Source: Trichaptum fuscoviolaceum (lineage: Eukaryota; Basidiomycota; Agaricomycetes; Hymenochaetales; Trichaptaceae). Taken from it: a stretch of 64,000 bases of DNA. Below, piece by piece: positions 33,299 through 52,026 of the stretch. The notes below the pieces were generated by a model. It saw only the letters and a program-made list of their open reading frames with translations, was not told the DNA's origin and made no database searches. Within the stretch, counting starts at the first letter, position 1, and the number at the start of each line of letters is the position of its first letter. The position numbers and the translations under genes were made by a program. Location: assembly GCA_910574455.1 (NCBI GenBank), contig CAJSYZ010000005.1, positions 1,798,001-1,862,000 on the forward strand. The letters run 5' to 3'.

Positions 33299-34310
33299 AT
33301 GCTGCCGCCTCGTTCCTATAAAGCTCTCATAGACCGTGCAGCTCACTTCAATGATGTTTCCAACCAATTAATCGACTCCGGTGATCGACAGGGCGCTCTC
33401 GCTGCGATCAAGAAATCCTCAGATCTCTTCAGGGAAGCGGTTGCGTTGATACCAGACGTTGCCGAACGAGGTCTTGGTATGACTCTGAGTAAAATGGCTC
33501 GCTATCTGCGTGATGAAGGGAGGGCGAAAGAGGCTGTCGATGCAATGCAAGAAGTGGTGGACGTATACAGGATACAAGCTGAGAAAGAGCCCGAGGAACT
33601 CATCCCCGAGCTTGCAGATGCTCTGTGTAACTTGTCTAATCATATCTCTGGGGCATATCCAGGTCAGAAGGAGCGTTCCTTTGCAACTTGCCAGGAATCG
33701 GTCTCACTCTTTAGAGGACTGGTAGCGAAGGAGCCAAAGAAATACAACCAAGACCTTGCTCTGGTTCTGCAGAACTTCTCGGGCTGTTATCTTGTGAAAG
33801 GAGACGGGGAGAACGCGATAGCTGCAGCTACAGAATCCCTGGATATATACAAAGAGCTCGCCAAGACCAGTCCAACTGCTTTCAATCACAAGGTTGCGGA
33901 TGGCCTATTTAATCTGTCGACTTATTTAGCGTGGGTAGGAAGGAAGGAGGAAGGTTTGGCTGCGATAGAGGAAGCGACGGACATGCACGGAGCCATGGCT
34001 ATTGTGAACCCAGACATCTTCAACGAAGATCTTGCACTGTCGCTGCGCATGCTCTCCGCTCGTCTGTCAGATCTGGGAAGAACCGACGACGTGCTCGTTG
34101 CACAACAGGAACGGGTAGAGATCGAGCGAAAGCTGGCTTCTATAAACCCAACCAAGTTCGATTCAAAACTTGCGGAGGCTTTACAAGCTCTTGCCATCTC
34201 GCTCGGCAACAAAAGCGGAGGGGAGGAAGGCGCACGGATTGCGATCAATGAAGTAGTGGAGATCTATAAGCGGTTGCACAAGCAAGAGCCAGTGAAGCAG
34301 GCACCTCAGC
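33299..34310 (+). pseudogene. TPR-only protein, paralog 2, broken by a transposon (5' part)
   Basis: Same family as paralogs 1 and 3. Reads MLPPRSYKALIDRAAHFNDV, then TPR pairs such as GDRQGALAAIKKSSDLFREA, GRAKEAVDAMQEVVDVYRIQ, DLALVLQNFSGCYLVKGDGE, ENAIAAATESLDIYKELAKT and RKEEGLAAIEEATDMHGAMA. Near the end, at HKQEPVKQAPQL, the frame runs into the terminal inverted repeat of the 17.6 kb transposon and continues through it (ISCIVICHYSVSDSF...) to a TAA near 34430. The true last 25 or so residues are therefore lost. A piece of a TPR gene 3' end lies on the far side of the transposon (51921-52026). A truncated but stable product is possible because most repeats are intact. Confidence 0.85.
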
Positions 34311-34382
34311 TCATAAGTTGTATCGTAATCTGTCATTACAGTGTATCCGATTCATTTCCTTATTTGGACTTGTATCCGATTC
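34307..34382 (+). repeat. Left terminal inverted repeat of the KDZ element
   Basis: 76 bases identical, in inverse, to 51845-51920. Begins CAGCTCATAAGTTGTATCG and ends GTATCCGATTC. Contains two GTATCCGATTC motifs. Confidence 0.93.
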
Positions 34383-34432
34383 ACACATACGATGCATTTC
34401 CATATAAAGAGATTTATTATGTCAGGTTATGA

Positions 34433-34845
34433 CATAGTTTAGTATTTACAGAACGAATTGGATTGCGTTATACATCAGTAGTCGTGAGAATTATAAGACA
34501 AAAGAGACAGAGTCGTGTCGTAAGGTAGATCATAAAAGTAAAAGGTAAAAAGGATTACTATTAGCTTAAGTTAACAACAATGTCATTAGAGGCACGAACG
34601 TTATATGTCCAAATAGAGAGTTATTGCATGAAGATAACTATAAGTCGTACTTGATTCAGTAATAGTACAGTAAGATACAGACCAGGGACTCACGAAAATA
34701 TGAGACAGAGGACAGGCTCGACTTGCAGCGGGTATCTAACTTGTATCGGACACTTGTAAGGAAACAAGCATATGGACTTGGAAAAGAATAAGACTAGATA
34801 CTTACAAGTGATGTCGAAGCTCATCATTGACCATGAGATGAGTTC
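34433..34845. other. AT-rich subterminal spacer of the KDZ element
   Basis: No gene seen; AT-rich sequence between the left terminal repeat and the subterminal array. Confidence 0.4.
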
Positions 34846-35068
34846 GATACCAAGTGCATCGTATACCAAGTGAATCGGATACCAAGTGCATCGTATACCA
34901 AGTGAATCCAGGTGCATCGTATACCACGTGAATCGGATACCAGGTGCAACAGATACCAAGTGAATCGGATACCAGGTGCAACGGATACCAACGGAATCGT
35001 ATGCTAGATGCAACGGATACCAACGGAATCGTATGCTAGATGCATCGGATACCAGGTGCATCGGACAC
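34846..35068. repeat. Subterminal array of 16 bp repeats
   Basis: About 13-15 tandem variants of a 16 bp unit, of the type GATACCAAGTGCATCG / TATACCAAGTGAATCG, drifting to GATACCAACGGAATCG near the right end. The array stops exactly where the transposase coding region ends (stop codon 35069-35071). Repeats next to the termini are common binding sites for transposases. Confidence 0.8.
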
Positions 35069-38000
35069 TCAAGCCGCGGTAGATGTATCTGCAGCAGCTT
35101 GAGTGTTCGATGCAAGTATACGATACATATTCTGCAAAGAAGCGGATTAAATATTGAAGTTTAGACACGAAAAAAAAACTTACCTGCGGTTCTTTAACCT
35201 CTGGTGTCTCATTGGCGTTCCACGTCAGTCCAAGACCTTCATGGATGGCCCACGCATCATAGCATGCAATCCTGTACGAGATTTCCTTGCTGGCCGCAAA
35301 AGATGCTCTGCCGGGATTCCCGTCCAGGGCTGCCGTTTCTGACAACGAATTCCAAGCCCTGGCGAAGGCACAGAACCCTCGCACAAGTCTCTTAAGTTCC
35401 TCTTCCAACAGGTCAACCTCCTCTCTCCATCGATCGCGTGCAGCCCATTGTCGATACCATTGCACACGATCGTCTACAGGGGTTATTAGAAAGGCTTGTA
35501 ATCTATACGACTAATAAAACCTTCTCACCTTCTTTCTCCCATTGAAGAATCGAGGAATTCGAAGAAGTCCCCCCGCTTCCAGACACGGTCCAAATCCACC
35601 CAATTTCCTTCGCACAAAATTCTGCAGGCTCCAAATTATCTGGTCGGTACATATCTTCCTCGGTGAGTTGTCGAAACGTGTCAGCCGAAGACTGCAGACC
35701 CAGACATAGCAAGGCACTATAGACTGTGTCGTACTCGCTCTTCCAGAACAGCTTCATTTTCCGCGCCTCCGAGTAAGCCTTCCCAGTACGAGTCTTCGTA
35801 GATCGAATGCCACCATGCTTCTTCGCCTTATGGTTATGCTGCGCCATAAGCCTAAGGGCCGTGCGCAAGTTCCCTATGACATCGAAGGCCTCGCCCTGTC
35901 TGAGCTTCAGTTCTGTCGCGGCGTGATGTTCAAGCGCGTACTTGAGGCGGTCCTCTGTCTTGAAGTCCGAAGGCAGGCGTAATCGGATGTCTTCGACAGC
36001 ATCTGCTACTTCCTCTTCGTCGAGATAAGATTGAAGACCAGGACAGATATCATATAAGTGCGCTCGCCATTTCAAGATGTCGTGGCGTAATGAAGAGGCT
36101 GATACCGGAATGTCGTCAGACAAAAAGGTCACATTTCCTTTCATAATGCGTCTACGCAATCAAGATTGAGTATGAAGCACAAATGAGAATACAAGAAACT
36201 TACTGTCTTTGTTGTAGCTTTATGCCTGCCGCAATTATAAGTGGCATACGACTGGCCTCTTCATCAAAACCATCCGGACTTTGATCTACCAAAGAGATCG
36301 TCATTGCGTTTAACTGGTCTTCGAGAGAGAGGGCTTCATGTTTATTAGTTAATGGCCATATAATAGTCAGTAGTACGCGTACCTGCGTTCTGCGATTTGA
36401 AGGGGCTGTCTACTTCACCAGACGCAGTCCGATTCCATTCGGTACCCCGTTTCACCCATTCATCGACCACCTTATCCGTGTAACGAGTCCTAAGTGTTGC
36501 ATCCGTTGCATCGAACTTCAATCCAAGGTTTTCTGCTCGCTTTCGAGTGCGAGGGTACTTCTTCTCTACCATCATAGCTTTGTGTAGAACAGTTAGTAAA
36601 GTGTACTTGAAATAGTAACCGATAACATACCGTGTTGTAGAAGCTTCGTCTTATTCCAGTCATTAATGACATCGTCCAACGTGTCGCATCGATGCCCCGG
36701 ATTCATTTGCTTTGTGCTCCCCGCAACTTGATTGGCCTCCGCCCAAAATCTCTCCGCCTCTTCGCCATCCGTTCTTCCGACCCCGCGAGTGTAATATAAA
36801 CTGTGGCAATACTGGCACGTGTCGACATGGGTCTGTCCATGCATTTTGCCAATGACGTCCATCAAGGAAAGTAGAGGTCGCTCCGGGAATTGGATAGCCC
36901 ACCTCTGACGGAGATTCACGATGTACATGCACATAATGTCATATGCAAGACATCTTTCCTCAATGTCATCCGTATTTTGAAGAGCGCCGCATAAGCTATA
37001 GTCACCGCACACAAATCTTCGAAGCAATTAGTCTACAATGAACGTGACGGGTATTGGACCACTCACTTTTCCCCTCGAACGAGGTTCGTTGCGCTATCAG
37101 GACGCACGAGTCCGTGTCGACAAAATACCATCATGACCCCCGTCACTACCTGGCCCTTATATTTCAGAGAATTCCAATTCTCGATGGCAGCAAACTTTCG
37201 ACATTTCCCTTTCTGTGTACGAAAAGACATCAGTATATGTAGAGTTAGAATTAGTGGACGACGCACTTCAATTTTAATATTGTAATGCTTCTTCATATGT
37301 TCTTCCATGGGTTGACGCGCTCTAAAATACCCTCGACCGTTCCACAGTGAAGGGTCGTTCAAGTTGTTCTTTTTCTCCAAATTGATTAGCTTGAAGTTTC
37401 CGTCCATTGCGAGGAAAATTGTTCTCAGATGTCTGTCGCATAAGTTAGTACATAGTATATATCAGAATCTAATTACTTACTTTTGAGAATCCGGACCTCG
37501 CAGCCTCGCATAAAGGCGATCTGACACATTGGATATTGGCCATTTCGACGACTGCGCGTCAGCCATGTTCACGTTAGGCACTGGACATGCTAAACAAACG
37601 TCTGCGAACGATCCGCGGGGTCGGCAAGTCATCAGATCGTCCAGGCCCATAAACTGCCCGCTTTCCCTTTCCGCCGCCAGGAATCGCCATAGGCGCATAA
37701 GCCGAATGAAATGCTGCGAAAGGTGCTACATGCAGTGAAGTCAGAATCAACTTGCGCACAAATACAAATACAAATGAAATTCTCACCGAATACTTGATTC
37801 TCGTGTCCTCCGATGTCATGCGCAATACCGCCTTCATGAAGTCGTGAGCGGACTTGCGCGATGCGTTCGTATGGACATGAAAATCCTTCAAGCACCGGAA
37901 AGTGACCACGGTCTCGGGATTCACAGTCGTGTACGGGAACAACCGACCTCGGATGAGCTGCAGGACATGAGAGTTGACTCCCATATTGTCCGAGCATTCG

Positions 38001-38789
38001 CAAAACATGACCACAATTTCATGCACCCCATTCGTATCTATCGCAGTCAACTTCTTGCCCGCAGCATTGCCCGCAGCGACCGGACAAGGAAGACCGCCAT
38101 GCCCGAGGAAAATACGCTTCCCTATGGTACTCAGGTCCACCTTGCGGAAGCATTGACCTGTCCACACCTCGCCCCAGTGAAGCGGCTCATAAGGATGAGT
38201 CTCCAATAGGCAGGGCGCGCATACAGGCGGGTGCTGAGGACAGTCATGGCATCGGAATAGCCGACGCCCGCCTCTATTGCACGAACACGCGATACCAATG
38301 TCAGGAGGACGTTCATAATGCAGGATAGCATCTTGAATGTCCCGCTGCATGGCCAGAAACTGCAGCAGATGATATTGTGCTGTCTAAGAATTGTCAGTTT
38401 TGTAGATTGCAGTACGTTCGCAGAGTGGCTTACCTGGTCACGTCGCTCCTCCTCTGCCTCAGCAGTGTCCACATTGTCCAACTCCTCATCTTCCTCCTCC
38501 TCCTCTTCACTATCGAGTCGTTGTCTCTTGGCTGCATCGGTTTGTAAGAACTCGTGGGTCGTCGTCGTCGTCGTCGTGTCCGCGTTCGCGTCGATTACTG
38601 TGGATGTATTTTGTTGTCGCAGTAGAGTTGGGACGATATGTTGCTGTTGCGACACGAAAAATGGGCTGCCTGGAGTTTTGGCGTCCTGAAGGATTCGCAG
38701 ACGCGTTCTGGAAGGCCTGTCGTTGCTGCCGTTGCTCGCAGAGTCTCGAAACCGGTCTCTGAGGCTCGACCTCTTTTTTTTGTCGTCCA
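35069..38789 (-). CDS. KDZ transposase with CxC2-like cysteine cluster, intact
   Basis: DNA-cutting and strand-transfer enzyme of the transposon. Eleven exons join in frame by canonical introns with no stops, giving roughly 1,000 residues. Start MDDKKKRSSLRDRFRDSA (38789); an in-frame ATG at 38880 would add 30 residues. The N-terminus is disordered and acidic (RLDSEEEEEEDEELDN). Then the CxC2-type cluster: CSCNRGGRRLFRCHDCPQHP, PVCAPCLLETHPYEPLHW and FLGHGGLPCP. The catalytic domain shows FLAMDGNFKL (first Asp), VMMVFCRHGLVRP, CLAYDIMCMYIVNLRQRW (second Asp), GKMHGQTHVDTCQ and GVGRTDGEEAERFWAEANQV (third acidic residue), then NPGHRCDTLDDVINDWNKTK. The C-terminal helical region ends NMYRILASNTQAAADTSTAA. 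An intact reading frame implies a recently active element. Confidence 0.9.
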
Positions 38790-39546
38790 TCACTGTTTCC
38801 CAATACCAAACTGCTCTTCTTGTCGTCTCGGTCACTGAGATTTCCGACTCTTTTTCCTTTCGTTTCAGAACAAATTGCACAGAATACTCTACGAAATTTC
38901 AAGTCTGCCAAAGAACGGAACAAGTTTATTAGACTGGCAATTATTGTACATTAATTTCTATCTAATTCTAAGTCACTTCAAACCCAGACAAAAGGAACAA
39001 CGCCGTCAAGGCGATCAAGCCATAGGAGTCGGGGAGGGGAGGGGAGTCGTAGGGCTCGTAGAGGAACGAGAGCAAGAAGGAAATTCGGCCCTTTGGCTTC
39101 CGCCAGTCTTGAAGTGTTACTTTTTTGGGGGTATTTCGGGTAGGCTTTTTGGCGTCGAGGCTCGGTAACTCGGTAAGGACGTTGTGCTACCGATCTACCG
39201 AGGGCGTATTCCGCCCTCGACGCCAATAAGCCTACCCGAAATACCCCCAAAAAAGTAACACTTCAAGACCCTTTGCAGCGTATTGTGGGAAATTTTCTTT
39301 CTACCCGTCCCATTATCTTCCCTTTGCGTACGACGTCGTCTCGGTCGTCCCCACTTTCATTATTTAGATAGTACTCTGTCCCCACTTTCATTAATTAGAT
39401 AGCAAATTGATCTTGGACTTAATTGTAAATTATAACTAATTATTTGAAAGAAAAAAAAGCGAGTGACGTTCGCATTCTTTTAACGATTAAAAGTTATTAA
39501 AGTGAGACGAAATGAGAAGAGAGTAATGATGAAGAAGTAACTAATA
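38790..39546. promoter_or_regulatory. Divergent control region between the transposase and the Spt5-like gene
   Basis: The 757 bp between two divergent genes must hold both promoters. It contains the 164 bp palindrome (39106-39269) and, at 39346-39402, two tandem copies of CCCCACTTTCATTA.TTAGATAG. The right part is AT-rich. Confidence 0.55.
39106..39269. repeat. 164 bp near-perfect palindrome
   Basis: Two 55-base arms, 39106-39160 and 39215-39269, are inverse copies with a single mismatch (GCTTTTTGG against GCTTATTGG); arm ends read GTCTTGAAGTG and CACTTCAAGAC. The central 54 bases contain repeated CTCGGTA / TACCGAG strings. It may be a small inserted foldback element or a regulatory hairpin between divergent genes. 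Confidence 0.9.
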
Positions 39547-42320
39547 ATGGTCATGAAACAGATGAGGTCGCGCGATGTAAGGGACGCGGCTCGTGTCTTC
39601 ATTGACGACGCAGCCATCGAAGATGGGAGGGACGACGAGGAAGACGAAGAGGATGGTGAAGATGGTGAGTAAAGGCAACAGAAATGTTAGAACATACACT
39701 CATTGTATGCGCATAGATTTCCTAGTGGACGAGCCGGAGCAGCGTACCTCTGCCTCCTCTTTCGACATAGCGCAGTTCCTGCGCGACCAGGCCGCCGATC
39801 TGGAGCAGGACGAGGCTGCGGACGCTATCGCACGCCGTTTCCGGGAGCGGGCTCGAGGTGATTCCTTGGCGTCTGTCCAAGCGAACGAGAGGGCTGGACG
39901 CCAAGTGCCCGGTGTTCAGTCCGTCTCCTACGAATTTCTGGGCAATACGAGGGTCGTCGACGAGCGCATGAGGGAAGAATACGATGGGTTAAAGCCCATG
40001 TGGATATTACCGACCTTCGTAAGTGAGTCTACTTTATCGGAGTGAAATAAACTAATACATTGACAGTATCATCAAGAGAAGGCGTATGTAGAGAGGGTCA
40101 ACACCTGCCTTCCATCTGGCGCGCGTGCCTTCTCTATTCCCGGTCTGAGCGGACGCATATATGCGTACGCGCACATACACGCATCGACGTCGAGAAGGCA
40201 TGCGCTAGTGCTGGCATCGTAGGGATTATGACCGGCAAAATGAAGTTGGTACCGGAAGAAGATAGGCGAGCGGTCTGGGACCTAATGCGTCGTAGACAGG
40301 CCATTCCTGTCGTGGAGCGCGACTCCTTCGTGCGCATGCGATCAGGCCAGTATAAGGGTGACATCGCATACGTGCCCTTGGCTGCCAACTCTACACTCCC
40401 TCCGATGACACATGAGGATCTCCGCCCGTTGGCGGACCACGACATCGTGAAGGACGACTTACTCGTGTTGTGGCTGGTGCCTCGTCTGGACTTGGACTTC
40501 ACTACGAAGCCGAAGCCCTTGCTCTCCGATTACCAAGTTCGTGCAGCTAAGCGGCGGCGCATTGAAGGGAAAGGGAAGGCGGATGTAGTGAAACGGCCAG
40601 AGGCCACGCCATTCGACCCTAAAAACGTACAGGATTGTCTTCGCCGTCAGCAGTTAGTCGACGATCCGGAATACGCGCTGGTGGAGGAAAGCGAGGGGAA
40701 GTGGACGTTTTTGGGCAGAACGTTTGAACACGGGTTCGAGAGACTGCACGTATTCGGCATACATGCAGTGAAGCCTATTCTTCGACCTTCGCCGGAGGAG
40801 GTGGCTCCATATATCGGCGTCAGCCAAACCGCGATCCGTGTCACGAATGGCGCATATACTCGAGTAGGAGATCGTGTCCGTACCAAAAAAAATAGTACCG
40901 GCACAATCATATCGTCGTCTACGTCGACGTTCACCGTTCGGCTCGATTGGGATACCGATGGCAAGGCTCTTGAGGAGGTGGAGGCCGGTGACTTCGAACG
41001 GTTGTTCGAGATGGGTGAGTGGGTGACAATCAGGCTGGGTCCGGAGGCTGGGCGATCAGGGGCAGTTGGGGCTATCGACGGGCCGTATTGACGGTGGCTA
41101 ACCGTGATGTCAGGCAAATGGTACGTATTGTATATCCAATGCAATAGATTACAGTTCTAATATTCAATGTAGATCTATGACATCCATCACGGACTCGTCG
41201 AGAGATCGGCAGCACCCATTCAGTACCCGTCGAGTCGTCGACTCCGCACCGAGGCCGAGTTAACGGCAGAAAGTCGAAAGTACGCGCGCACGTGGGGACT
41301 GGCGGATGACGACGAATTGATGAGATCCTTCGTCGACAAAGACGTGTATGTTCTGGAGGGCTCGGGAAAGGGTCGCATTGGACGTGCGATTGGCGTTGGG
41401 TCGAAGTCGGCGACTGTGGTATTCGACGGGAGTCAGGTGAAGCATAAGGTGCAGTTAAGGGATGCCGTGAATCTGTGAGTTTCAATAGAGCGTCTCATAT
41501 ATGCGCTATGATTTGTGCTGACGACGTTTGTGTAGGGAGTCCATGCTGTACCTCGACGCCTCCGAGCCCAGTCCGGCCTGTCTGCAAGCGACTGAGGTTG
41601 CCAGTGTCTTCCTGGCGAATCGCGATACGGAGACGGAAGCACCGGTCACTTTGAAGGAGGCGTTTGAGAACGTTGTCGTCCCTGCACCACCTAGACAAGA
41701 AGTCCCAGGTGAGTTCCTGCTATGTAAGACGTACGAAATGAAGTACTAACAAAAGATTATTAGACCCAGATACGTCGGCGGTATGGCTTTGGGCGCACAC
41801 CTTGCTGCCCATTCTACGGCAATACAAGGTCTTTGCCACTGTCGTATCCCCCAAGAACGGTGCAGTTGCGGGTCAAGCATGTTGGACGCTTCCCGAGCTA
41901 GCGCCGCATATGAGGACAACCGCCGAAGGACCGGACCACGTCGCGTTTAGCGCGCCTATGAAGTTCAATTGCAAGAACGGCAGGAAGGATGCGGACTTCG
42001 ACGCCAGTCCGACTTCGATTGACGTCCATCGACCGGGCATCAAAAGCATGGCGTATGTAGTGCGTGGTGAGCACAGGAAGCAGCTAGTCAAGATCACGGA
42101 GATCGTCCGCAATAAGGGCGTCATCACTGGATTCAAGGCAAAGCGGGATCCTTTCGTAGGGAGAGCACCGACAATCTTCGTCAAGGTTAACGAAGTGACG
42201 AAGGTCGAGGAGGTACCCGAGGAGCAGCACGCGGAGAGATCTATCGCGAGACTCCCCGAGAACGAGCTCAACCCTGATCCCAAGCTCCTGAGGTTCATCG
42301 ACTATTACCCGAACTACTGA
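39547..42320 (+). CDS. Spt5-like NGN/KOW-domain protein carried by the transposon (two apparent frameshifts)
   Basis: Resembles the transcription elongation factor Spt5 family (NusG N-terminal-like domain followed by KOW motifs). First exon MVMKQMRSRDVRDAARVFID, acidic, splicing to DFLVDEPEQ. The NGN-like region contains MWILPTF, AFSIPGLSGRIYAYAH and IDVEKACASAGIVGIM. KOW-like segments: SFVRMRSGQYKGDIAYVPL, VGDRVRTKKNSTGTIISS, FEMGEWVTIRLGPEAGRSG and VDKDVYVLEGSGKGRIGRAI. The C-terminus ends PKLLRFIDYYPNY. Two one-base frame changes are needed: near 40165-40190 inside the NGN region, and at a GGG run near 41085 (AVLTVANRDVRQM follows in the shifted frame). They are either assembly errors in short repeats or early decay. 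Genome Spt5 would be longer and acidic with SPT4-binding NGN; this is a divergent paralog. Confidence 0.65.
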
Positions 42321-42734
42321 CTTCATGCCGGATTTCGATCGACGCAGCTCGACGTCCGTTCCTATTCGTTTTGGATGCACGTTTCGACACTTCAAACAAG
42401 GACGAGGACCTTGATCCACTCGAATTCCTCGGCGTCTGAAGCCGCACACGCGGTTCGGTCTATATGCGCCGCCGTAGTCACTCGTTTACCCGTGACGTCT
42501 CAGTCCCACCCTCGTTACACTTTGCCCTCTTCCTTCCTTCATTCCATTCATTTCTACTATTCGAACATTGTGGATCACATAGTATCTTGGACTTCATGCA
42601 TGTAAATTATTGTAATATTTAGTAGAATTTCTTGTATGTGTTGTAGATACGCTCAATGCACTCTTGTTATCTGGAATTTCATTTGTGACCTGAAGACATT
42701 GAACTCATCAACTTAATGACAGAGCGCCAACTCT
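42321..42734. other. Spacer within the KDZ element
   Basis: 3' UTR of the Spt5-like gene and AT-rich sequence up to the nested inverted repeat. No gene seen. Confidence 0.4.
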
Positions 42735-42959
42735 ACTTACAAATTAGCAAACACCCAAGCCCCTGAAATCAGATTTTTGCCAGTAATGCTGGAGGATTTA
42801 ATCACATAATGATTCAATCATCAATCAAATCTGATTTAATCCAAAAATGAATTATATGTATCATTAGTTTAACAAGCAGTTAGAGACTGTGAGTTAACTC
42901 ACAGCAGAGCCCGCTACCCGGGGATGGGTATAAAGTCTTACAGAAAGAAAAAGAAAAAG

Positions 42960-44035
42960 AACTTAATATTTTTGACATTCATACAGAACTATATTACTAT
43001 CACTACATGCTTCTCTGTGGGTGAAAGTGCATTCAAGTGCGTCATAACACTGTGCAAGTCTCGCGGAACGTCCAAAGGACATGCGCCTGACGACACGCGA
43101 TGAAAATGCAGGCTGTGATGCCTCTGTTGAGCTTCTTTCCCCCCAGCAGCGTCTCTTCATCCGGACGCTTTGACCATTCGTTTTTCCATGTCGCTGATAG
43201 TCAGTCACCGCGCTTCCGGCCTCCGTATGATTGTCGCCTATGCGCCGGATGTGCCGGGATGGGCGGACTTGCCTTGCAGCAGCCTTCATCGCTTCGATCT
43301 GAGCAAGTTCAAGAGCTACAGTTCGGTCGGGAACCATGGGCGAGTTGGGAAAGCGTGCATACGGGTTGCCGGCAGGGTTCATAATGGTTTTGTCGACACA
43401 CTGCATGCACGTCGATAGTCTAAAAGCAGAAGCAGTACAAAGCGTGAGCACTCAATAGCAAACAAGAGCTTCGCAATGCTTCCTTGACATGGAAGACGTA
43501 CCTATCAATACTCTTCTCGTGACTCAGTGAGTGCCTTTGAGAAAGTCCATGCTCGACTGCCGGTAGAGGGGTTTCTTGAGAACGTTGTTCATTGACTGGA
43601 GGACTCCATCGTTCTGCAGTTGGTCAGAGATGCGAAGGCGGTCGTCTTGACTGCGACTCCGTGCGAGATTGAGGAGCTTGGCGCGCGTCGAGCGAACGGA
43701 GTGTGGCCATTCAAGAGGGTCCTTTGCGTGCATGAAGCTGAGGAAGACCCTATTGTGCACATTTGGAGGGGGTATGGCCTCGTTGAAGGGGGAGAGGAGA
43801 AGGGAGGGTAGGGCGTCAGGTGTCTATCGTTTGATAGTAGCGTAAGCTCATCACGTCCAAGCCCAGAGCCTGCGTGACGGGACACGTCTCACAGGCAGAA
43901 AGACGAAGGCTCACCTTGTTCGACAATGCCAGCTGGTCTGACGTCCATTCCCATTCCATCTTGTCGTCCGCAGCGTCATAGTGAGAGCTGTTCGAGCTGT
44001 CCGTACTTTTACGCGGTGCATCCGAGTCAGGCTCA
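42960..44035 (-). pseudogene. Unrecognised gene fragment, minus strand, inside the nested element
   Basis: Several exon-like pieces with good coding character and plausible splice sites: EPDSDAPRKSTDSSNSSHYD then MEWEWTSDQLALSNK (near 44030-43915), TPDALPSLLLSPFNEAIPPP then NRVFLSFMHAKDPLEWPHSV and RSTRAKLLNLARSRSQDDRL (43825-43625), MNNVLKKPLYRQSSMDFLKG (to about 43524), and CMQCVDKTIMNPAGNPYARF then VALELAQIEAMKAAARQ (43410-43270). I do not recognise the family. The pieces may be exons of one captured host gene; the end is unclear, so I treat it as a fragment. Confidence 0.4.
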
Positions 44036-44269
44036 AAGAAAAAGGTTCATGCGAATGGTGGGGGAGAACGAGCGGCAGAGATGAAAGGGAGGGTATCTGT
44101 GGTCGACTCGGAAGTGGCACCGGCACGTGACCACAGTGCCACTGTCGTGGTCGCGCGGGCTACCGCGTCCAAGTCGCTCTCCCTTTCACTCTACGATTCG
44201 CGCCTGTCTGCTGCGCTTGTCTATAGAATGAAAAAACATCGACAACGAAGAATGGCAGTCTCTTTCTCC

Positions 44270-45024
44270 TTACCTTGCTCTTGTTGCCTCATTTCCGGAA
44301 CCTGCGACGTTCACCGCTGTCGACACGATTCACTGTATCGAGGGTGGTGAGGACAAGGACGTTGCTGAGGATGAAGAAGAGGGCGAGGACCTTTGCAACT
44401 GTACGTTCTCTCTTTAATATTGTACTATTATCCTTCTCAAGACCGCTACCCTTCGTTACAAGCGTGGCCGCCGCTCTGGTCTTTGCGATTAGAACGGTAC
44501 CGGCAAGTCCACCTTATGCGTGCGATTACCATCGACCGGCTTGAGTACCTCCCATCCTCCGTTGAAGCCCGTACGTTCTACGTCGATCACTTCAACATTG
44601 GCAGTGACGCCTGTACCTTGGTGGGCCAGTACATCCTTTCCGACAAGCGGCTCTCGCATCCATCGGTTTTAGCGATGAGACGCTATTGAAAGCCCTTCTG
44701 GTGTATGGAAGATGAAACTCGCGCTTGCACGCGCTATGCTCTTGATGCGTGCAATCCTCCTTCTCTATCAGCTTACTAACTTTGTGGATGACGTCAATGT
44801 TGCCAGGCTCGAGAACTACCTTACTAGCCTCAGACCTGCACCTCAATCATTGTCTCTCTTTATATTCAACACTAGCACTGCCGTTCTCCACCTCAACTGC
44901 TTCAAGCTCCTTTGGTACAAGGACATCCTTGTGGTGCTTGTCAACACTGTTCCTGAGGCCAAGTCCTTTTACACTCTTAATGTAGCTGAGGACTATAATT
45001 GCTTGATTTTGATAGACTTGTGAT
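44270..45024 (+). pseudogene. Decayed fragment of EF3-type ABC ATPase (elongation factor 3)
   Basis: Readable pieces in order: EDKDVAEDEEEGEDLCNCTF (with a stop soon after), LRYKRGRRSGLCD, a frame change, NGTGKSTL (Walker A), MRAITIDRLEYLPSSVEART then FYVDHFNIGSDACTLV, and MKLALARAMLLMRAILLLYQ, VDDVNVARLENYLTSL, FKLLWYKDILVVLVNTVPEA. They match the nucleotide-binding domains of fungal elongation factor 3. The Walker B position reads LLLYQLTNFVDD instead of the usual LLLDEPTNHLD, so the ATPase is dead even apart from the stops. A working EF3 gene must exist elsewhere in the genome. Confidence 0.8.
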
Positions 45025-45218
45025 ATTGTAGATTAATCATAACATATAATTCAGTCAACTGTATATTGATTTTATATCCCTACTTCATAACAATATACTA
45101 ATTTTAAGTATTGAATAAATCTGAATAGATCATTGATTAAATCATTTTATGATTAAATCACCCTGCATTACTGGCAAAAATCTGATTCCCAGGGCTTGGG
45201 TGCCTGAAATTAGTAAGT

Positions 45219-45513
45219 CAATCTACCTTTTGTGTGGATCGACTCAAAGACTGATGCATACCTTTCACAAACTAGGTGTATTCCGCCTGTTACATTTGCG
45301 GCAAAGTAAGAAATGCAAACTCTCTCAGTGATGTCCGAGTTGTTGTAAGACATAGGCAGATGCTCGTAAAGTGGATGGATTCATGTGTGAGTTCACGAGT
45401 CGACATAAGGTACAAGAAAGAGATGTATGAGAGTATATGCACTGGAAAGGAGAGTGATCTCGACTATGCGATCTTTTGCAATTCATATTGACGAACTATT
45501 CCATTCAGCAAAC
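45219..45513. other. Spacer between nested element and minisatellite
   Basis: No convincing gene; short open frames only. Confidence 0.35.
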
Positions 45514-45921
45514 CCTTCCTGCGGCTGAGGCCACCCGGATGCAGTCTAAGGACAGTGTCCATCCCCTTCCTGCGGCTGAGGCCACCCGGACGCAGTCTAA
45601 GGACAGTGTCCATCCCCTTCCTGCGGCTGAGGCCACCCGGACGCAGTCTAAGGACAGTGTCCATCCCCTTCCTGCGGCTGAGGCCACCCGGATGCAGTCT
45701 AAGGACAGTGTCCATCCCCTTCCTGCGGCTGAGGCCACCCGGACGCAGTCTAAGGACAGTGTCCATCCCCTTCCTGCGGCTGAGGCCACCCGGACGCAGT
45801 CTGAGGACAGCGTCCATCCCCTTCCTGCGGCTGAGGCCACCCGGACGCAGTCTGAGGACAGCGTCCATCCCCTTCCTGCGGCTGAGGCCACCCGGACGCA
45901 GTCTGAGGACACGTCTGATCC
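45514..45921 (+). repeat. Minisatellite, 8 units of 51 bp, open in several frames
   Basis: Eight head-to-tail units of 51 bp. Since 51 is a multiple of three and no unit contains a stop in these frames, at least two plus and two minus frames stay open through the array. The plus frame encodes a 17-residue unit LPAAEATRTQSKDSVHP with M/T, K/E variation. Variation is graded: units 1-5 have TCTAAGGACAGTG, units 6-8 have TCTGAGGACAGCG or similar. No protein family is recognised; coding is unproven. Confidence 0.9.
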
Positions 45922-46182
45922 CCTCCTTGACCCTCTGGTTTCGACTTTGCGTAACAGTGCAGTGTAATGCGGTGGAGGTCTGAACGCCGAGGCTGTTTAG
46001 GACAACGTAAGTTACGAAATTAGAGGCCGTTCAATACATTCACTGACATTTGAATAGGTGACTGTCTTGGTAAACAAGGGTCCACCATAAGCGAGATACG
46101 ACGCGGGACTCATAAATGTGTATAGGGCGCGACCTTTCTCCGTAAGCCTTTAGTCTCTACACTTCCTCACCTCACCATTAAC
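45922..46182. promoter_or_regulatory. Promoter region of small acidic protein A
   Basis: Contains a short leader ending CTCACCTCACCATTAAC just before the ATG at 46183. No gene seen. Confidence 0.4.
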
Positions 46183-46858
46183 ATGGAATCCATTACAGTA
46201 ACGCGCAGTGTCTTGCAAGTTATGCCTGCCATTCGGATCCTACCCGGCGCGAATGATTACATTGCATACGCGTGTTTCGACGCGCTCATGGACGAGATCA
46301 CGTTTTATCGATTTCGAAGGGCGTTCTACACGCAATCGGCCCATTGTCCGTGCAACGGACGCCATATCGTTATCATGTCGAGCGGAGAAGTCACTTTCCG
46401 TCAAATGGGATTACTTTACATGATAGTAAGTACATTATAGGAGTATATTGTATGCGACATTAACGCGTGATATACAGTGCATGGTCGACTCGCCATTGAC
46501 ATCAAACGAAACACTCTTTTCTCGCCAGCTTGCGCAGGTCAGACGCCAGCGTCTTGTGGCCGGTCTTGTTCGATTGTACCAATTGAACCCCACAGCGATA
46601 CCCGGGGAATTACCGAACGCAGAAATGTTAGGGCGTCTCAACCATTTGCTTGCGTCGTTGGGGGGTCCTCCTGAACCTCGACGGTACGCGCCCGAGTTGA
46701 TGCCGCCGAATCCCCCTAACATTCTTATGGCGGAGAATACCGGAAGGGTCGGAGCTGAGACAAGTGCTTACGACGGCGACGTGAGCGACAATGAAAGTTG
46801 GACCTCACTTGACTATAATGAAGCCGAATCAGAATTCGATGATGATATGGCGCAGTAG
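46183..46858 (+). CDS. KDZ-cargo acidic protein A (unrecognised family)
   Basis: Two exons (46183-46425, 46478-46858) join in frame to 207 residues. It is a paralog of the next gene. Shared pattern: MESITVTRSVLQVMPAIRIL; CPCNGRHIVIMSSGEVTF then RQMGLLYMI, the intron after that point, C and later PNAEMLGRLNHLLASL. The N-terminal half may form a small domain with a C.C..G.H motif (a possible metal site); the tail is acidic (DNESWTSLDYNEAESEFDDD). The intron sits at the same position as in its paralog, which supports both gene models. Function unknown; its place next to the transposase points to an element-borne accessory factor. Confidence 0.65.
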
Positions 46859-47159
46859 ATGTTCGTAGACTAGCTTACTATTTTTTCACTTCAATTCTAA
46901 TTGAATTTACTCGGATTTCTACTCTAGCTTGATACTTAATGTCCCGGGAAAATTTTCGCGATGGGTACGCTGCTACGGATCTCTACTCAAATATTTTCTG
47001 AAATTCCCAAAACAACTCTTTAGTCACCTAGCAAGTGCCCGACCCTGGACAAGGCAAATGAATAGAGGTAAGCCATAATACAAATGGCACGACAGATCGC
47101 TTTGCTCACCCTCCCCTCTATCCTTTCCTTTGCTGCCGTCTCGTCTGAATCTCTGGACT
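46859..47159. other. Spacer between paralogs A and B
   Basis: Holds the 3' UTR of A and the promoter of B. Nothing else seen. Confidence 0.4.
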
Positions 47160-48149
47160 ATGCGTGTGGGTGCTATACGACTTCAGCGCCGCGGGCTACA
47201 GCTTTTGCCTGAGGTGAGCTTCACGGGCGAAGGACGCAGTATAGAGATCGCAATGGCTGCATTCGACGCGGTCGAGCCCATACTTGACCTACTCCGTCGT
47301 TCGTTCGAACGTGAGGTCGCCGAATGTACTTGTGACAACGGTTCACACAGCCTCATTGTGTCAGTCGGCGCCATCCGCTTCGCCAACTTGGGTATCATAT
47401 ACTTTGTAGTAAGTTCTGATTGACTATGTGACGGAAGCGAAAGATCTGACTTCGTCGACGTATAGTGTGATTCCAAGCCTGCGACAGAGGCAAAACCCTT
47501 TCAATTCCAGCTTCTCCAACAAGAGCGTCGCGAACTTATTTCGAAGCTCGTATTGATTTACGCAGGCAATCCGAAACAGGTGGACGGGGAGGTGTCCAGC
47601 GCCGAAATGCTGCGAAGTCTCAATGACTTGATGGATTCGTTGCATAGCGCAGCGACGACATCACCACTGCCTTTCCCTCCTTGCCGCCAGCCTCCGACTT
47701 TGACCCCATTGTCTTCTCCGCCCCATTCTGATGATGAAGATAGCTCAGACGATGGCTTTGATGATGGTGTCTCCGATTTCATTGTCAGCGACGTCAGCAT
47801 CACGACAAGCGACGACGACTACTATCCAGCACTCGATGTGTACGAGTCAGGCAGCGAAAGTCTATCCACCAGCGATACAGACGACGATGGCGAGTCTGAT
47901 TCAGATATGGAGGGTGACTCGATGTCAGAGATCAACGAAGCGGCTATGTCAGCTGAAGAGATGGACAAGGTGGAGGGAGCTTTAGGGACGAAGAAGGCAG
48001 AGACATCATCCATTGCTGTCTCCGTTGACGATGGTACGAAGGTCGAGTCGGATGAGGACAGTATGATATCTTTGACGGACTCGGACGTCGAAGCTAATCC
48101 GTATGTCGGACTTGGTGATTGCGCTGAGCACCCAATAACCCTTGATTGA
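47160..48149 (+). CDS. KDZ-cargo acidic protein B, paralog of A
   Basis: Two exons (47160-47408, 47466-48149) give 310 residues. It aligns with protein A: MRVGAIRLQRRGLQLLPEVS, EVAECTCDNGSHSLIVSVGA then IRFANLGIIYFV, the intron, CDSKPATE, ELISKLVLIYAGNPKQVDGE and SSAEMLRSLNDLMDSL. The C-terminal half is highly acidic and serine-rich (DSDDEDSS-like runs such as SDDGFDDGVSDFIVSD), like chromatin or transcription acidic tails. The start at 47160 was chosen because it aligns with the start of A. I do not recognise the family. Confidence 0.68.
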
Positions 48150-48643
48150 CATTCATGTCATGCAATGCACTTCAGTTTCTCTCGATGAATTACACTCTTC
48201 CGTTACTGTACTTCCCTCGTGTAATACGCCGTCTTCGATCCTTTCCCAAAAATTTCTTCCACTTTTCTCGATTTTCGGCACCATTTCCTGTAATTAGTAA
48301 CTACCCTTAATGCAGTGTTGTCAACCCTTTCAATTAGTTGTGATGAATGATCGCCAAAGAGTAATTCGAAACTCGCAATAGAGTTAAAAAATCCGGGGCA
48401 AGAAGTCACCGGGATCTATCCAGTACCTTATTGAGTAAAGTCGTCTACGTCTGTCTCTTTGACCGCACACTAAAAATATTTATCCTGTCAGGTACACAAT
48501 GTACATGAATGTTTTCTGAAACCATTGGGTGAGTGAATTTGAATTTCGGGTACTTTTGTGACACTAATTCGCTCCGTAAAAAAGAATAAATGATTCTTTC
48601 TTCACTATCAAACAATGGGACCTAAGTCTTGCCACCTTGCCAC
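48150..48643. other. Spacer within the KDZ element
   Basis: No gene; AT-rich in parts. Includes the 3' UTR of B and the upstream region of the next gene. Confidence 0.4.
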
Positions 48644-51272
48644 ATGTCTTCGTCTATGTCAGACGAAGTAGAAGGCGAAAATGTAAGCTGTTCATGACAA
48701 TGGTCTAACATTGCGCAACTAACTCCAATTCTATTCTTTATGCTTCCGATGCAATGCTGTGTACGCCAAGTTAGTTCCTGAATGCTAAAGCAATCACATG
48801 CAAGCTAAATTAGTGGAAAAAAAGAGAATCCGATGAGCTAGGGAAGCTAGTCGAGAGACGACTGGCAGCGCTTACTGGAAGATTAGGTGACGAAGGCAAG
48901 GTGTCCGATGAGCTTGATACTATAGGGTAATTCATTCGTATTTTTCCCTCTCAACCACAATTTATCTAGAATATAGTGATAGCGCTTACTGGCATGTTGT
49001 GTGACGAAGGCGAGGGGTCCGATGAGCTTGAATCCTTGGCTAAGTCATTTGGTTTTTTTCTTCTTAACTACAATTCAATATTTGGGTAATTACAGATGAC
49101 TGGCGCGTCTGAAGCCATCGCGGGCGCGTATGCCTGTGTACGAGGTTCTACCGGGACTGGGGCGGATAGACGGAAGGTTGGGGGATTCGAGATATTTTAA
49201 AGTCGTAAGTAGAGCAGCCTGTCCTCCATCTCCGCCCCCCACCCCACCCCCTTTTTTGTTTCTTCTTGTCTTCGCGCGATTCACCTGTCTAACATGCTTT
49301 TGCGCGCTAGATCCCCTCTGCATGGCTCGCCGAAGGCGCGTCCGGCCCCTCTCCGACCTCTCCAGACTGGGCGCCCAGTGATGTGCTTTACTGGCCCGCA
49401 GGTTGATTTCCTGCAGTCGATGGTGCCTACGTTCCTAGCGCTCCCAACGCGCAGGAAAAATACCCTTCGCCGCACGTTCTTTGCCACGGCGCTGACCGAA
49501 TTTGTGATTCGATTTGCAGACGATTTGGGCCCATCGTACAACGTGAGCGAGCTGACGCAGGTGAGTTGTCTTTGTCAATTCATCTCCTTTAACTGACATG
49601 ACTTTTTTGCCAGCGTCTCAACCGCTACTTCTGGAACCAGGCAATGTCGGATGCGCGACGGAAGACGAAGCTTGCGCGCCGCGGCATATTCACGACATCG
49701 ACCGATTCCCTGGGCATCGATGTGAACAGCGCGGACGCAGCAGTCCTGGCCGAGCTATTCGGTAGAGCACCGAAAACCCACGAAGGCGACACCGTTCGCC
49801 GTTTTCTGTGTCGATTATCAAGACGAAATTGCCGAGGTACTCGCAGTCCGCATGGAGGACATCGGCGACCCCTCGAAGACTGCTAGCGAGCGCCAACGTA
49901 TTCGATCTGATATGTTTAATAGATTGTCCGACGAAAAGCGCAAGGAGTACGAAGTGGAGGCTGCAGCGATGAATGCTGAGAACAAGGCATTTTTCGACGA
50001 CCATGTTCCTGATCAAGTGATCTTCGAGTACGTACTCTCATATTCGTTGAGACTGTATGCTAACAATACTTAATAGAAACCAGACTCACCTGACGGATGT
50101 CTTGCAAAAGATTGCCGTCGCCTTGTTGGGCCGAGGTAGATCAAAAGTCGGTGAGGGGATGATTCACTTGCAATATGCACTGAAGGGCCCTACTGGACCT
50201 ATTGTCCACAGGTAAGCTGTCTGTTTCGTTGTCGCTTCAGCTACTGACACAAGCATATAGTTTGGCAGTCAGTACTGTTGAGGCCGAGTATACCACCTCA
50301 AGTGTATTCAAGCTGCACAATATAGGTGATACTTGGGCAAACTACGCAACTGCAAAACTATACCAAGGTTTGTAACATATTCATTTGTTCGCATCACCTC
50401 TAATATGTGTTAGTAGATGAGCTTGCAGCAGCAGTTGCAGTCCCTGTTGCCGACGCAGCTGCATCTGACGCAGTCCCTGTTGCCGACGCAGCCGCAGCCC
50501 CTGCATCTGACGCAGTCGCAGTCCCCGTCGCAGTCACAGCCCCTGCTTCCGACGCAGCTCCCGTTCCCATAGAACTCGACAAGGCACCTGTTCCCGCAAC
50601 CGAAGACCATGATGTCCGTGTGCTGTCTACGGGCGCAAGTGTGGCCCCGCCAGCCCTAAGTGTAGCCAACTATGCTGTCGTCGAGTCGCACACAAGCATT
50701 GGTGGGATTCAAGTCATCACGGGGGTTGCTTCTGCTTCTGCAATGGATGTGGATCACAATGTGGATCAGATGAACATTGATTCTTCGGGTTTCATTGAGG
50801 GTATGTTATTAATTACTCTATCTTGTATCACTTGCTTACATTCTCTTATACAGGCTCGACGACATCGCAAGCCACGCCTGGGCTTTCGTCTCGAGTGGCC
50901 ACACTTGACCTTGGCCCTCCCATGACTCAACCCGACTTTACATCGACAACGAACGACGTATCATCGAAGAAAAAGAGGTATGATTTAATTTATTGCATTC
51001 TATTTGAATTTAATACATTTAGTAATAGAGGCCGCCCTGCAAAGAATGCAGCTACGAAAGTCAAGCCGCCCGCGGCGACGAAGACGAAGACGAAGACCAA
51101 ACCGCCTGCAAAGTCCCTGAAAAAGACCGTGCCTAAACCGACACCGCCCGCTACTAGACGAAGCACGCGGGTTGTGACGGAATCAACTTGGCGTGAAGCC
51201 GCAAACAACATCGGTGAGTTTATTACGGGCAACTCTAATGTCATGCTAATATATGATTATTGCGTAGGCTAA
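48644..51272 (+). CDS. KDZ-cargo protein with AT-hook-like basic C-terminus (multi-exon, model uncertain)
   Basis: Plausible start MSSSMSDEVEGEN (48644). Recognisable exons: WKKRESDELGKLVERRLAAL, MPVYEVLPGLGRIDGRLGDS, FLQSMVPTFLALPTRRKNT with FFATALTEFVIRFADDLGPS, RLNRYFWNQAMSDARRK, FAVFCVDYQDEIAEVLAVRM with FNRLSDEKRKEYEVEAAAMN, LTDVLQKIAVALLGRGRSKV and VGEGMIHLQYALKGPTGPI. Then an Ala/Val/Pro-rich linker (VPVADAAASDAVPVADAAAA) and a basic tail with RGRPAKNAATKVK, an AT-hook-like core, and RRSTRVV before the end NNIG. Frame changes near 49400 and at an AAAA run near 49773 suggest indels or missed introns. Probably DNA- or chromatin-binding; family not recognised. Confidence 0.5.
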
Positions 51273-51844
51273 ACTGTCGTCGCAGTGCGTCGGCGCTTAA
51301 TCCCTGTGGCGGCGCTTATTGATCACATGTCTCCATTCATTTGTTGTCCCGCTCATTGTCTTTGTCTGTCTACCTCTAATCTACAGTTAATTCATTAATT
51401 TAATTTAAACATTGTGCATGATCTTCTGAGCTGAATTTTACTGAGTCTAAACATTATATGAGAGAGATTTCCAATAAAACATCAAATTTATTTGAGTGTG
51501 CATGCGTGCGGCGCATGCTTGCAACGGACGCGCAAATCGATTCAGTGCTGATGGCACGTGACTTTACTCTCCGTGTCGCGCGCAAAGTGCACGTGCTTAA
51601 TAGTATGTGTGAACAACGCATGTGTGCACGTTAAGGCAACACGTGATGATAGCGTGTGAGCTAAGCGCCATGCATAAGGACATGTCACACATTCTTAAAG
51701 GAGGTTGTAACGGATACAACTGCCATATAGGGAAACGAAATTATTCTCGCCACAACTGCCAAATACGGGAAGAATCGGATACAAGGAATTGGCTTCAAGT
51801 TCAAATATAGAAATGAATCGGATACAGGAAGAAACGGATGCACG
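51273..51844. other. Right subterminal region of the KDZ element
   Basis: No gene. From about 51710 it holds scattered CGGATAC motifs (for example CGGATACAAC, CGGATACAAG and CGGATACAGG), matching the motif in the terminal repeat and the array at the left end. Poor in coding signal. Confidence 0.5.
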
Positions 51845-51920
51845 GAATCGGATACAAGTCCAAATAAGGAAATGAATCGGATACACTGTAATGACAGATT
51901 ACGATACAACTTATGAGCTG
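51845..51920 (-). repeat. Right terminal inverted repeat of the KDZ element
   Basis: Perfect inverse of 34307-34382, ending CGATACAACTTATGAGCTG. Confidence 0.93.
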
Positions 51921-52026
51921 TGGAGATCGAGTGAAGTATCGACCACCACTTCAGGAGGCACTCAACATCCTGAAAGAGATGAGCCCTAACAAGTCGGAGG
52001 ACATCGCCATGGAAGATGCTTCGTAG
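51921..52026 (+). pseudogene. 3' remnant of a TPR paralog gene
   Basis: In frame, from the transposon edge: CGDRVKYRPPLQEALNILKE then MSPNKSEDIAMEDAS and TAG (52024-52026). RPPLQEALNILKEM lines up with RPHLDRSLKALKQVM at the end of TPR1 and TPR3. This is the missing end of a TPR gene, but it begins about eight codons before the point where TPR2 is cut, so it overlaps it (see findings). Confidence 0.75.

Follow-up and report, generated by a model that had tools for sequence, protein, structure and literature searches.

A KDZ transposon of Trichaptum fuscoviolaceum with an Spt5-like gene and a putative anti-silencing module

We describe a complete KDZ transposon, present in multiple copies in the genome of the basidiomycete Trichaptum fuscoviolaceum (GenBank assembly GCA_910574455.1), that carries an Spt5-like gene and further accessory genes between its ends. 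The window, that is, the whole stretch of DNA analysed, comprises 64,000 nucleotides of contig CAJSYZ010000005.1 (positions 1,798,001 to 1,862,000); its features are listed in Table 1. That this is a KDZ transposon with an accessory module we regard as practically certain. Our best reading, with a probability of about 0.6, is that the module serves the element for anti-silencing and transcription, a function predicted from sequence.

Table 1. Features of the KDZ transposon and its surroundings (positions in the window)
Feature	Position	Strand	Remarks
Complete KDZ transposon	34298..51929	.	17,632 bp, of which 2,459 bp are a nested insert; ends identical and 7-bp duplications present in 15/15 copies
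Left target-site duplication	34291..34297	+	AGTGAAG
Right target-site duplication	51930..51936	+	AGTGAAG
Left end	34298..34382	+	CAGGCACCT + 76-bp inverted repeat
Right end	51845..51929	-	76-bp inverted repeat + TGGAGATCG
Left subterminal repeats	34343..35068	.	core GTATCCGATTC / GAATCGGATAC; partly 16-bp tandem array (34846-35065)
Right subterminal repeats	51763..51885	.	core GTATCCGATTC / GAATCGGATAC
KDZ transposase, 11 exons, 1065 aa	35069..38790	-	KDZ (PF18758) E 2e-51, profile positions 3-217 of 217; CxC2 (PF18803) E 2.7e-26; in frame, no stop
Transposase exons 1-6	38790-38434, 38383-37787, 37725-37481, 37432-37267, 37212-37067, 37016-36631	-	
Transposase exons 7-11	36577-36383, 36333-36204, 36151-35529, 35473-35184, 35131-35069	-	
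Palindrome between divergent transposase and Spt5-like genes	39106..39269	.	55-nt arms 98% complementary; fold z -17
Spt5-like gene	39547..42320	+	acidic N-terminus, NGN and KOW; window copy frameshifted twice
Nested insert, 2,459 bp	42748..45206	.	own terminal inverted repeats (TIRs); 7-bp duplication AAATTAG
51-bp minisatellite	45513..45911	+	unit number ranges from 2 to 11 in nine copies
Acidic Cys-motif protein 1, 207 aa	46183..46858	+	2 exons
Acidic Cys-motif protein 2, paralog, 310 aa	47160..48149	+	2 exons
AT-hook protein with helical, perhaps HMG-like stretch	49294..51272	+	window copy with one frameshift; another copy encodes 539 aa

The original prediction placed the element at 34307..51920, between perfect 76 bp ends. 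The 76-nt core is indeed identical at both ends, within a 79-nt inverted repeat (34304-34382 and 51845-51923) that is 99% complementary, but the limits had to be moved to those in Table 1 because the ends extend 9 bp further on both sides. These outer 9 bp (CAGGCACCT on the left, TGGAGATCG on the right) form a pair identical across all 15 copies, giving the element CA...CG termini. Each of the 15 paired copies in the genome is flanked by a perfect 7-bp target duplication, different at every site, which excludes a chance origin of the ends and is the mark of a sequence that moves as a unit. These ends do not occur on short non-autonomous elements alone, as their 15 pairs enclose elements of about 15–61 kb; an element with related ends (L051), some 2.2 kb long, is also present. 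When the flanks of the window copy are fused with a single AGTGAAG, a 399-codon open frame spans the site, placing this one insertion within a host open frame.

As predicted, the 11 transposase exons, whose splice sites were picked by script and by hand, join in frame, and their product contains both the KDZ domain and the associated CxC2 cysteine cluster. The four plus-strand genes of the original prediction are also present, with one protein expected to be Spt5-like, two to be acidic paralogs and one to resemble AT-hook proteins.

The Spt5-like gene of the window copy has two frameshifts relative to other copies, which the original prediction missed; in another copy it encodes 834 aa without a stop. 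Pfam matches of single proteins are weak (at best 1.2e-6 for KOW and 1.7e-6 for Spt5_N, each in three of four members, and 0.001 for NGN in two of four), and the member from the window's family, taken alone, falls below the cut-off (Spt5_N 0.003, KOW 0.012). A profile of four KDZ-linked Spt5-like proteins matches SPT5 in the PDB at E 3.8e-15, and a second transposon-linked set does so at E 2.5e-22, which bears out the NGN/KOW assignment. Judged by these profiles, the protein is a relative of SPT5, sharing with SPT5 and plant KTF1/RDM3 an acidic N-terminus, the NGN and the first KOW region, and differing from them in its length (about 834 aa) and in a half beyond the KOW matches for which the profile search found no match in the PDB. 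The C-terminal half may have a new function, because the PDB SPT5 matches of both sets stop by about position 490, whereas among the alignments listed between the two sets, one covers positions 15-805 of 834. A search of the genome for host SPT5 returned another locus of similar make-up only, and not the host gene.

The two acidic proteins proved to be 34% identical to each other, and the spliced AT-hook protein of another copy contains the core KKKRGRPAK; the window copy of its gene carries one frameshift relative to other copies, again missed originally. A GRF zinc finger motif in one of five acidic proteins (E 0.061) and an HMG box in one of four AT-hook proteins (E 0.19) are weak matches below threshold, and PDB profile searches with the acidic and AT-hook proteins gave chance-level matches only. 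Single-sequence structure models were poor (pLDDT 57 for an acidic protein and 68 for the AT-hook protein, the latter without a Foldseek match at E ≤ 0.001), and the helical stretch of the AT-hook protein is perhaps HMG-like. Searches for relatives in a database seemingly dominated by short single-exon proteins returned two, one and three proteins, three of these diverged (63-67%). The stated lack of a TET/JBP gene between the ends agrees with our Pfam searches of the element's proteins, which covered TET/JBP types other than the divergent PE type and gave no match; the three genome-wide matches all lie outside the element, none near the KDZ matches listed.

The original prediction proposed looking for the cargo between the same ends in other copies. 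Eight other copies in this genome were read over their full length, and each has the same genes, arranged in the same order; protein searches found matches to these genes inside six further paired copies. In two diverged families (families 2 and 3, two loci each), gene order and strands are kept alongside diverged KDZ transposases, and the Spt5-like protein is 44-64% identical by exon at the four loci. Across the three families cargo matches have 32-64% protein identity with gene order kept, and long gene models were found at the two loci read; a more distant fourth-family locus has a similar, looser layout. On this comparative evidence, the accessory set (an Spt5-like gene, an AT-hook gene and one or two genes for acidic Cys-motif proteins) is old and co-inherited. 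A Plavaka-type transposon also carries an Spt5-like gene. That Spt5-like loci lie near Plavaka (834 candidates) was not taken as sufficient; the link was accepted once the transposase–Spt5 junction was found to recur at 11 loci. Of 37 further Spt5-like loci, 26 have no KDZ match within 20 kb among the matches listed and no Plavaka-type junction.

Non-coding features also distinguish the element. With at most one mismatch, the subterminal repeat core, which adjoins the TIRs, occurs at six sites on the left and four on the right, with none in the 16.4 kb between and none in the 46.4 kb of the window outside; at two mismatches the counts are 16, 6, 4 and 10, respectively. The palindrome occupies the corresponding position in families 2 and 3, and all 36 genome matches to its arm motif fall within 19 loci of the three families. 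The nested insert, overlooked originally and missing from the eight other copies read, is probably a non-autonomous KDZ-like element.

Among copies, 105 of 208 copy-specific substitutions are CpG transitions, a per-site rate about eight times that of C-to-T changes outside CpG. That half of these substitutions are of this kind suggests methylation of the copies at CpG; the transitions could come from general methylation of repeats. Amino-acid changes are depleted in the Spt5-like gene (15 amino-acid or stop changes to 27 silent ones, neutral ratio 1.94, p 5.8e-5); the acidic and AT-hook genes gave no significant result in the same test, and the transposase gave one only on shared changes. Scored for each copy relative to the column majority, 30 short indels fall in coding sequence, which leaves most copies with one or more broken genes. 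As the copies are near-identical, we infer recent activity of the transposon.

The closest described relatives are Kyakuja (KDZ) transposons, including TET-carrying ones (Kojima 2025, PMC12730594), whose TET/JBP cargo has been proposed as an escape of fungal DNA transposons from methylation. The window element shares with Kyakuja the KDZ group, 7-bp duplications, a 5'-CA start and an accessory gene presumed to act epigenetically, but it has 76-bp inverted repeats, which the two Kyakuja families described there lack, ends in CG rather than TG, and carries Spt5-like, acidic Cys-motif and AT-hook genes in place of any TET/JBP match (PMC12730594). We do not file it as Kyakuja, a lineage characterised by 5'-CA..TG-3' termini without TIRs. 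The words 'Spt5', 'KOW' and 'HMG' are absent from the main text of PMC12730594. KDZ1-3 of Cryptococcus are likewise mobile and have TIRs, but differ in size (about 9-11 kb), TIR length (139-241 bp), duplications (8 bp or 4-8 bp) and cysteine type (CxC1), and the portion of PMC12810828 used here mentions no accessory gene, in contrast to the cargo set of the window element. Our literature searches found no paper describing an Spt5-carrying KDZ element. In Iyer et al. 2014, KDZ elements are reported to encode further proteins, one of them a divergent HMG protein; extra chromatin-type genes would be shared with those elements, the HMG identity of our AT-hook protein being only putative. The prediction of a different payload stands as regards the Spt5-like set and the missing TET/JBP match, and needs qualifying in view of this reported HMG protein.

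Anti-silencing has been shown for VANDAL/VANC of Arabidopsis (PMC10398659). Like that system, the window element has tandem repeats outside coding sequence and encodes its own protein(s), and in the model proposed here the two work alike. The transposases are unrelated, and on our side the likeness extends to subterminal repeats and CpG decay only. The VANDAL transposase is Mutator-type. In maize En/Spm, of another superfamily, the element protein TnpA reads subterminal repeats and activates the element; the likeness lies in this use of subterminal repeats, which we propose here as well.

The element moves by means of its own KDZ/CxC2 transposase and leaves 7-bp target duplications. In the mechanism that we tentatively favour, at somewhat less than even odds, its putative DNA-binding proteins would recognise the subterminal ATCGGATAC repeats and the promoter palindrome, and the Spt5-like protein would sit on RNA polymerase II together with host Spt5 or in its stead. 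Genes of the element could then be transcribed even once host CpG methylation starts silencing copies. Since it carries an Spt5 relative, the element may bring its own machinery for readout in silenced DNA, with VANDAL/VANC (PMC10398659) and TET/JBP cargo (PMC12730594), as those sources present them, as precedents. Broken genes in most copies, the 26 of 37 Spt5-like loci without a KDZ or Plavaka link, the non-significant selection on the acidic and AT-hook genes, selection on the transposase seen for shared changes only, the below-threshold finger and HMG matches and the poor structure models count against this reading, as does the general methylation of repeats that could lie behind the CpG transitions.

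Other explanations differ in how they account for the same genes. The Spt5-like protein could be a decoy that titrates Spt4, polymerase or small-RNA silencing factors, mimicking an SPT5L/KTF1-type silencing adaptor instead of promoting elongation. Its profile does match plant RDM3/KTF1 (E 7.5e-10), and a new role for the region past position 490 or so would fit; the KTF1 match, however, covers positions 155-239 only and is outscored by several SPT5 chains in the PDB, and we consider a decoy unlikely. Alternatively, the accessory genes might serve transposition rather than expression, through transpososome assembly or the choice of transcribed targets by way of Pol II. Repeats that adjoin the TIRs and a window copy within a host open frame are what this would lead one to expect, but a single insertion site is no sample and the 9-11 kb Cryptococcus elements are mobile with no accessory gene mentioned in that portion of PMC12810828, which leaves it an outside chance of much the same order.

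That the cargo consists of passenger host genes, captured by chance and without function for the element, seems distinctly improbable. Frameshifts in many copies and the 26 unlinked Spt5-like loci speak for it; against it stand the gene order kept over three families at 32-64% cargo identity, with long gene models at two loci, the recurrence of the Spt5-like gene with a Plavaka-type transposase and the depletion of amino-acid changes in that gene. A host gene cluster duplicated in segments, with incidental inverted repeats, would explain the multi-gene content only; it was rejected on the target duplications at 15 sites, perfect and different at each, with the same ends, and on the open frame restored by fusing the flanks, and its probability is negligible.

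Returning to the reading of an anti-silencing module, we put forward, as a possibility that falls short of even chances, that transposon-borne Spt5 is a distinct lineage through which DNA transposons of two or more unrelated superfamilies, KDZ and Plavaka among them, supply their own transcription-elongation machinery, combined in KDZ elements with DNA-binding proteins, subterminal repeats and a promoter palindrome into a module that would maintain expression of the element despite host methylation and counter silencing through polymerase elongation, not DNA demethylation. A KDZ family without a TET/JBP match, in which an Spt5-like set has been kept over long divergence, points to a second, transcription-based route, and the Spt5-like gene in a Plavaka-type element adds to that pointer. 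With a multi-copy, apparently recently active element whose ends, repeats and genes are mapped, the question becomes testable.

The window holds a mobile KDZ transposon that carries a conserved module of accessory genes together with subterminal repeats and a promoter palindrome, and whose copies decay at CpG sites. Its 76-bp end has at least 52 matches in the genome (59 Mb, 12 contigs)—a lower bound, as 40 of 76 candidates were scored—and 15 pairs of ends enclose elements that range from about 15 to 61 kb. A perfect 7-bp duplication flanks every one of the 15, its sequence differing each time. The original test was whether the same genes travel between the same ends elsewhere: eight of the fourteen other paired copies were read completely, and every one holds the element core in unchanged order, with pieces mostly 97–99% identical to the window element (lowest listed identity 94.6%, at the left end of one copy). 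Protein searches place matches to all five genes within the remaining six pairs. An additional copy of the family lies at 5.76–5.81 Mb on contig C7, with one end only among the matches listed.

The reported inverted ends are real, although comparison of copies moved the limits outwards by 9 bp at each side; these outer 9-bp sequences differ between the two ends (CAGGCACCT left, TGGAGATCG right) and are directly followed by the 7-bp target duplication. When the flanks were joined with one duplication, a 399-codon open frame spanned the insertion site; the window copy has thus probably inserted into a host gene, whose product we take to be TPR-like; two relatives of this frame occur inside the window. 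Differences in copy size are due to insertions. One such insert in the window copy has its own terminal inverted repeats (TIRs), 7-bp duplication and a terminus (CAGGCACC) resembling that of the enclosing element, and is probably a non-autonomous KDZ-like element nested within a KDZ element. Elsewhere, locus L051 has related ends about 2.2 kb apart, forming a short element that does not match the window element's interior.

Coordinates of features in the window (no contig prefix) and on genome contigs (C1–C11)
Feature	Coordinates	Details
Window element, corrected limits	34298-51929	
Nested insert	42748-45206	2,459 bp
51-bp minisatellite	45513-45911	between Spt5-like and first acidic gene; 2 to 11 units among 9 copies
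Interrupted host open frame, two relatives	29362-29969, 33101-34297, 56205-56787	66-68% DNA identity
Family 2 loci	C1:430016-441544; C1:49774-61300	Spt5-like identity 44-64% by exon
Family 3 loci	C1:731457-743742; C3:826465-838748	Spt5-like identity 44-52%
Family 4 locus	C11:3850500-3868499	
L051, short element	C9:3728453-3734452	
L035, Plavaka-type locus	C8:3174700-3184699	
L036 and second tandem locus	C7:5699000-5708999; C3:356468-361177	
L037, Spt5-like locus	C4:3368500-3378499	
TET/JBP matches	C3:5436268; C8:4246; C9:1760512	equal scores

Reading of the genes largely bore out what had been proposed from sequence. The 11 transposase exons join in a reading frame of 1065 aa with KDZ and CxC2 domains, both far above cut-off; the AT-hook-like protein contains the motif KKKRGRPAK; and no TET/JBP match was found in the window element. 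Among the matches listed, none of the three TET/JBP matches in the genome lies near a KDZ match. The AT-hook protein also has a helical stretch, and an HMG identity is only suggested, as is a GRF finger for the acidic proteins, which share the pattern C-x-C...H...G...C.

Protein searches found the transposase, Spt5-like, acidic and AT-hook genes co-located at four diverged loci, order and relative strands unchanged. One locus was read from each of families 2 and 3: their TIRs measure 71 and 74 bp (identity 85–86%), their termini are CAGGCACCTCA and GTGGTGATCG (window family, GTGGAGATCG), their 7-bp duplications, identified by eye, are GCCCCTG and CTATGAG, and each has a single predicted acidic gene, against two in the window element. 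The fourth-family locus combines a KDZ transposase with an Spt5-like gene and a relative of the AT-hook protein (31% identity, E 1.5e-4), laid out as in the window element, and its middle gene bears a faint likeness to the acidic proteins (20%). The accessory set of the KDZ element is an old one.

At ≤1 mismatch, GTATCCGATTC occurs at 10 sites in the two subterminal stretches (0.9 and 0.28 kb) of the window element and at none in the 16.4 kb between them or the 46.4 kb of window outside the element; at 2 mismatches there are 16 sites in the left subterminal region, 6 in the right, 4 between and 10 outside. Families 2 and 3 have related arrays near their ends, with one weak site at the right end of family 3, and 6 and 1 further sites at 2 mismatches in their respective middles. 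A 164-nt palindrome (fold z −17) separates the divergent transposase and Spt5-like genes, and palindromes of 161 and 133 nt occupy the same position in families 2 and 3; family 4 has none. All 36 genome matches to the arm motif at ≤1 mismatch (reversed control, 0) fall in 19 loci, made up of the 15 paired copies plus two loci from family 2 and two from family 3; at two of the 19, one arm only is present. The arms are conserved, and differences between families fall on both sides with complementarity kept; gene conversion is another process by which the arms could stay alike, and this covariation alone is thus no proof of a functional hairpin.

Across the five gene regions in up to nine copies, 105 of 208 copy-specific substitutions were C-to-T or G-to-A changes at CpG. 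Within window-family copies this amounts to 105 per 1,792 CpG bases (0.059), against 31 per 4,297 other C/G bases (0.007), an excess which suggests that copies become CpG-methylated after insertion. Under a CpG-aware neutral model, amino-acid changes in the Spt5-like gene fell below expectation (p 5.8e-5 copy-specific, 0.04 shared); for the transposase the depletion reached significance only among shared changes (p 0.03), and depletion in the acidic and AT-hook genes was not significant. Genes free of frameshift, stop or insert numbered 2/8 for the transposase, 1/8 for the Spt5-like gene, 7/9 and 5/7 for the first and second acidic genes and 4/8 for the AT-hook gene, after exclusion of copies with a large insertion (1, 1, 0, 2 and 1, respectively) and with two smaller insertions kept and scored as broken. 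In the window copy, the Spt5-like gene is frameshifted twice and the AT-hook gene once. Short indels, scored in each copy relative to the column majority, occur at similar rates in coding and non-coding sequence (0.42 vs 0.56 per kb) and are therefore neutral decay or assembly errors.

The predicted likeness to Spt5 was upheld by a profile of four Spt5-like proteins, which matches solved SPT5 (E 3.8e-15) and also plant KTF1/RDM3 (E 7.5e-10); Pfam matches of the individual proteins are weak. With the family 4 protein as query, 37 further Spt5-like loci were counted among the matches listed, leaving aside its own locus and three window-family loci. Eight fall within a Plavaka-type junction set, two lie about 4 kb and one 18 kb from a KDZ match, and 26 have neither a nearby listed KDZ match nor the junction. 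At L035, a Plavaka transposase (E 9.6e-28) shares its strand with an Spt5-like gene whose KOW domain is above cut-off (E 1.4e-5). Because Plavaka is abundant (834 candidates), we searched for the 3-kb transposase/Spt5-like junction rather than proximity; the query, which runs from the 3′ exons predicted for the transposase into the start of the Spt5-like gene and leaves out the Plavaka domain itself, was found at 11 loci (L035 plus 10; identity 89–100%), 10 of them over full length. A family of Plavaka-type transposons carries an Spt5-like gene.

Two other arrangements were seen. At L036 and a second locus on C3, an Spt5-like gene stands immediately upstream of, and in tandem with, a KDZ transposase of a different family (43% transposase identity); the Spt5-like label at L036 reflects a 26% match (E 1.8e-6), with no Pfam family matched at E 0.01. 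The Spt5-like gene at L037 is full-length, its Pfam matches are sub-threshold, and it is of a repeated type, several places scoring nearly equal. A profile of the L035–L037 proteins matches SPT5 at E 2.5e-22 and aligns almost end to end with the KDZ-family set.

A full-text search, with most subscription journals outside its scope, did not find Spt5 together with KDZ transposons, Plavaka, transposon-encoded or Basidiomycota transposable elements. Among the 10 titles listed of 397 papers matching more broadly, none suggests such a module, and KDZ appears alongside HMG and TET in one paper, on a brown alga. Iyer et al. in 2014 reportedly mention additional proteins in KDZ elements, and the accessory module may be partly described there already. 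TET/JBP genes are cargo of KDZ and other fungal transposons, according to PMC12730594, and element-encoded anti-silencing is established for VANDAL/VANC (PMC10398659). The window element differs in that it has no TET/JBP match and has a relative of an elongation factor instead. In the KDZ element, accessory DNA-binding proteins would mark the element's sequence, and the Spt5-like protein may assist the polymerase in transcribing it against silencing.
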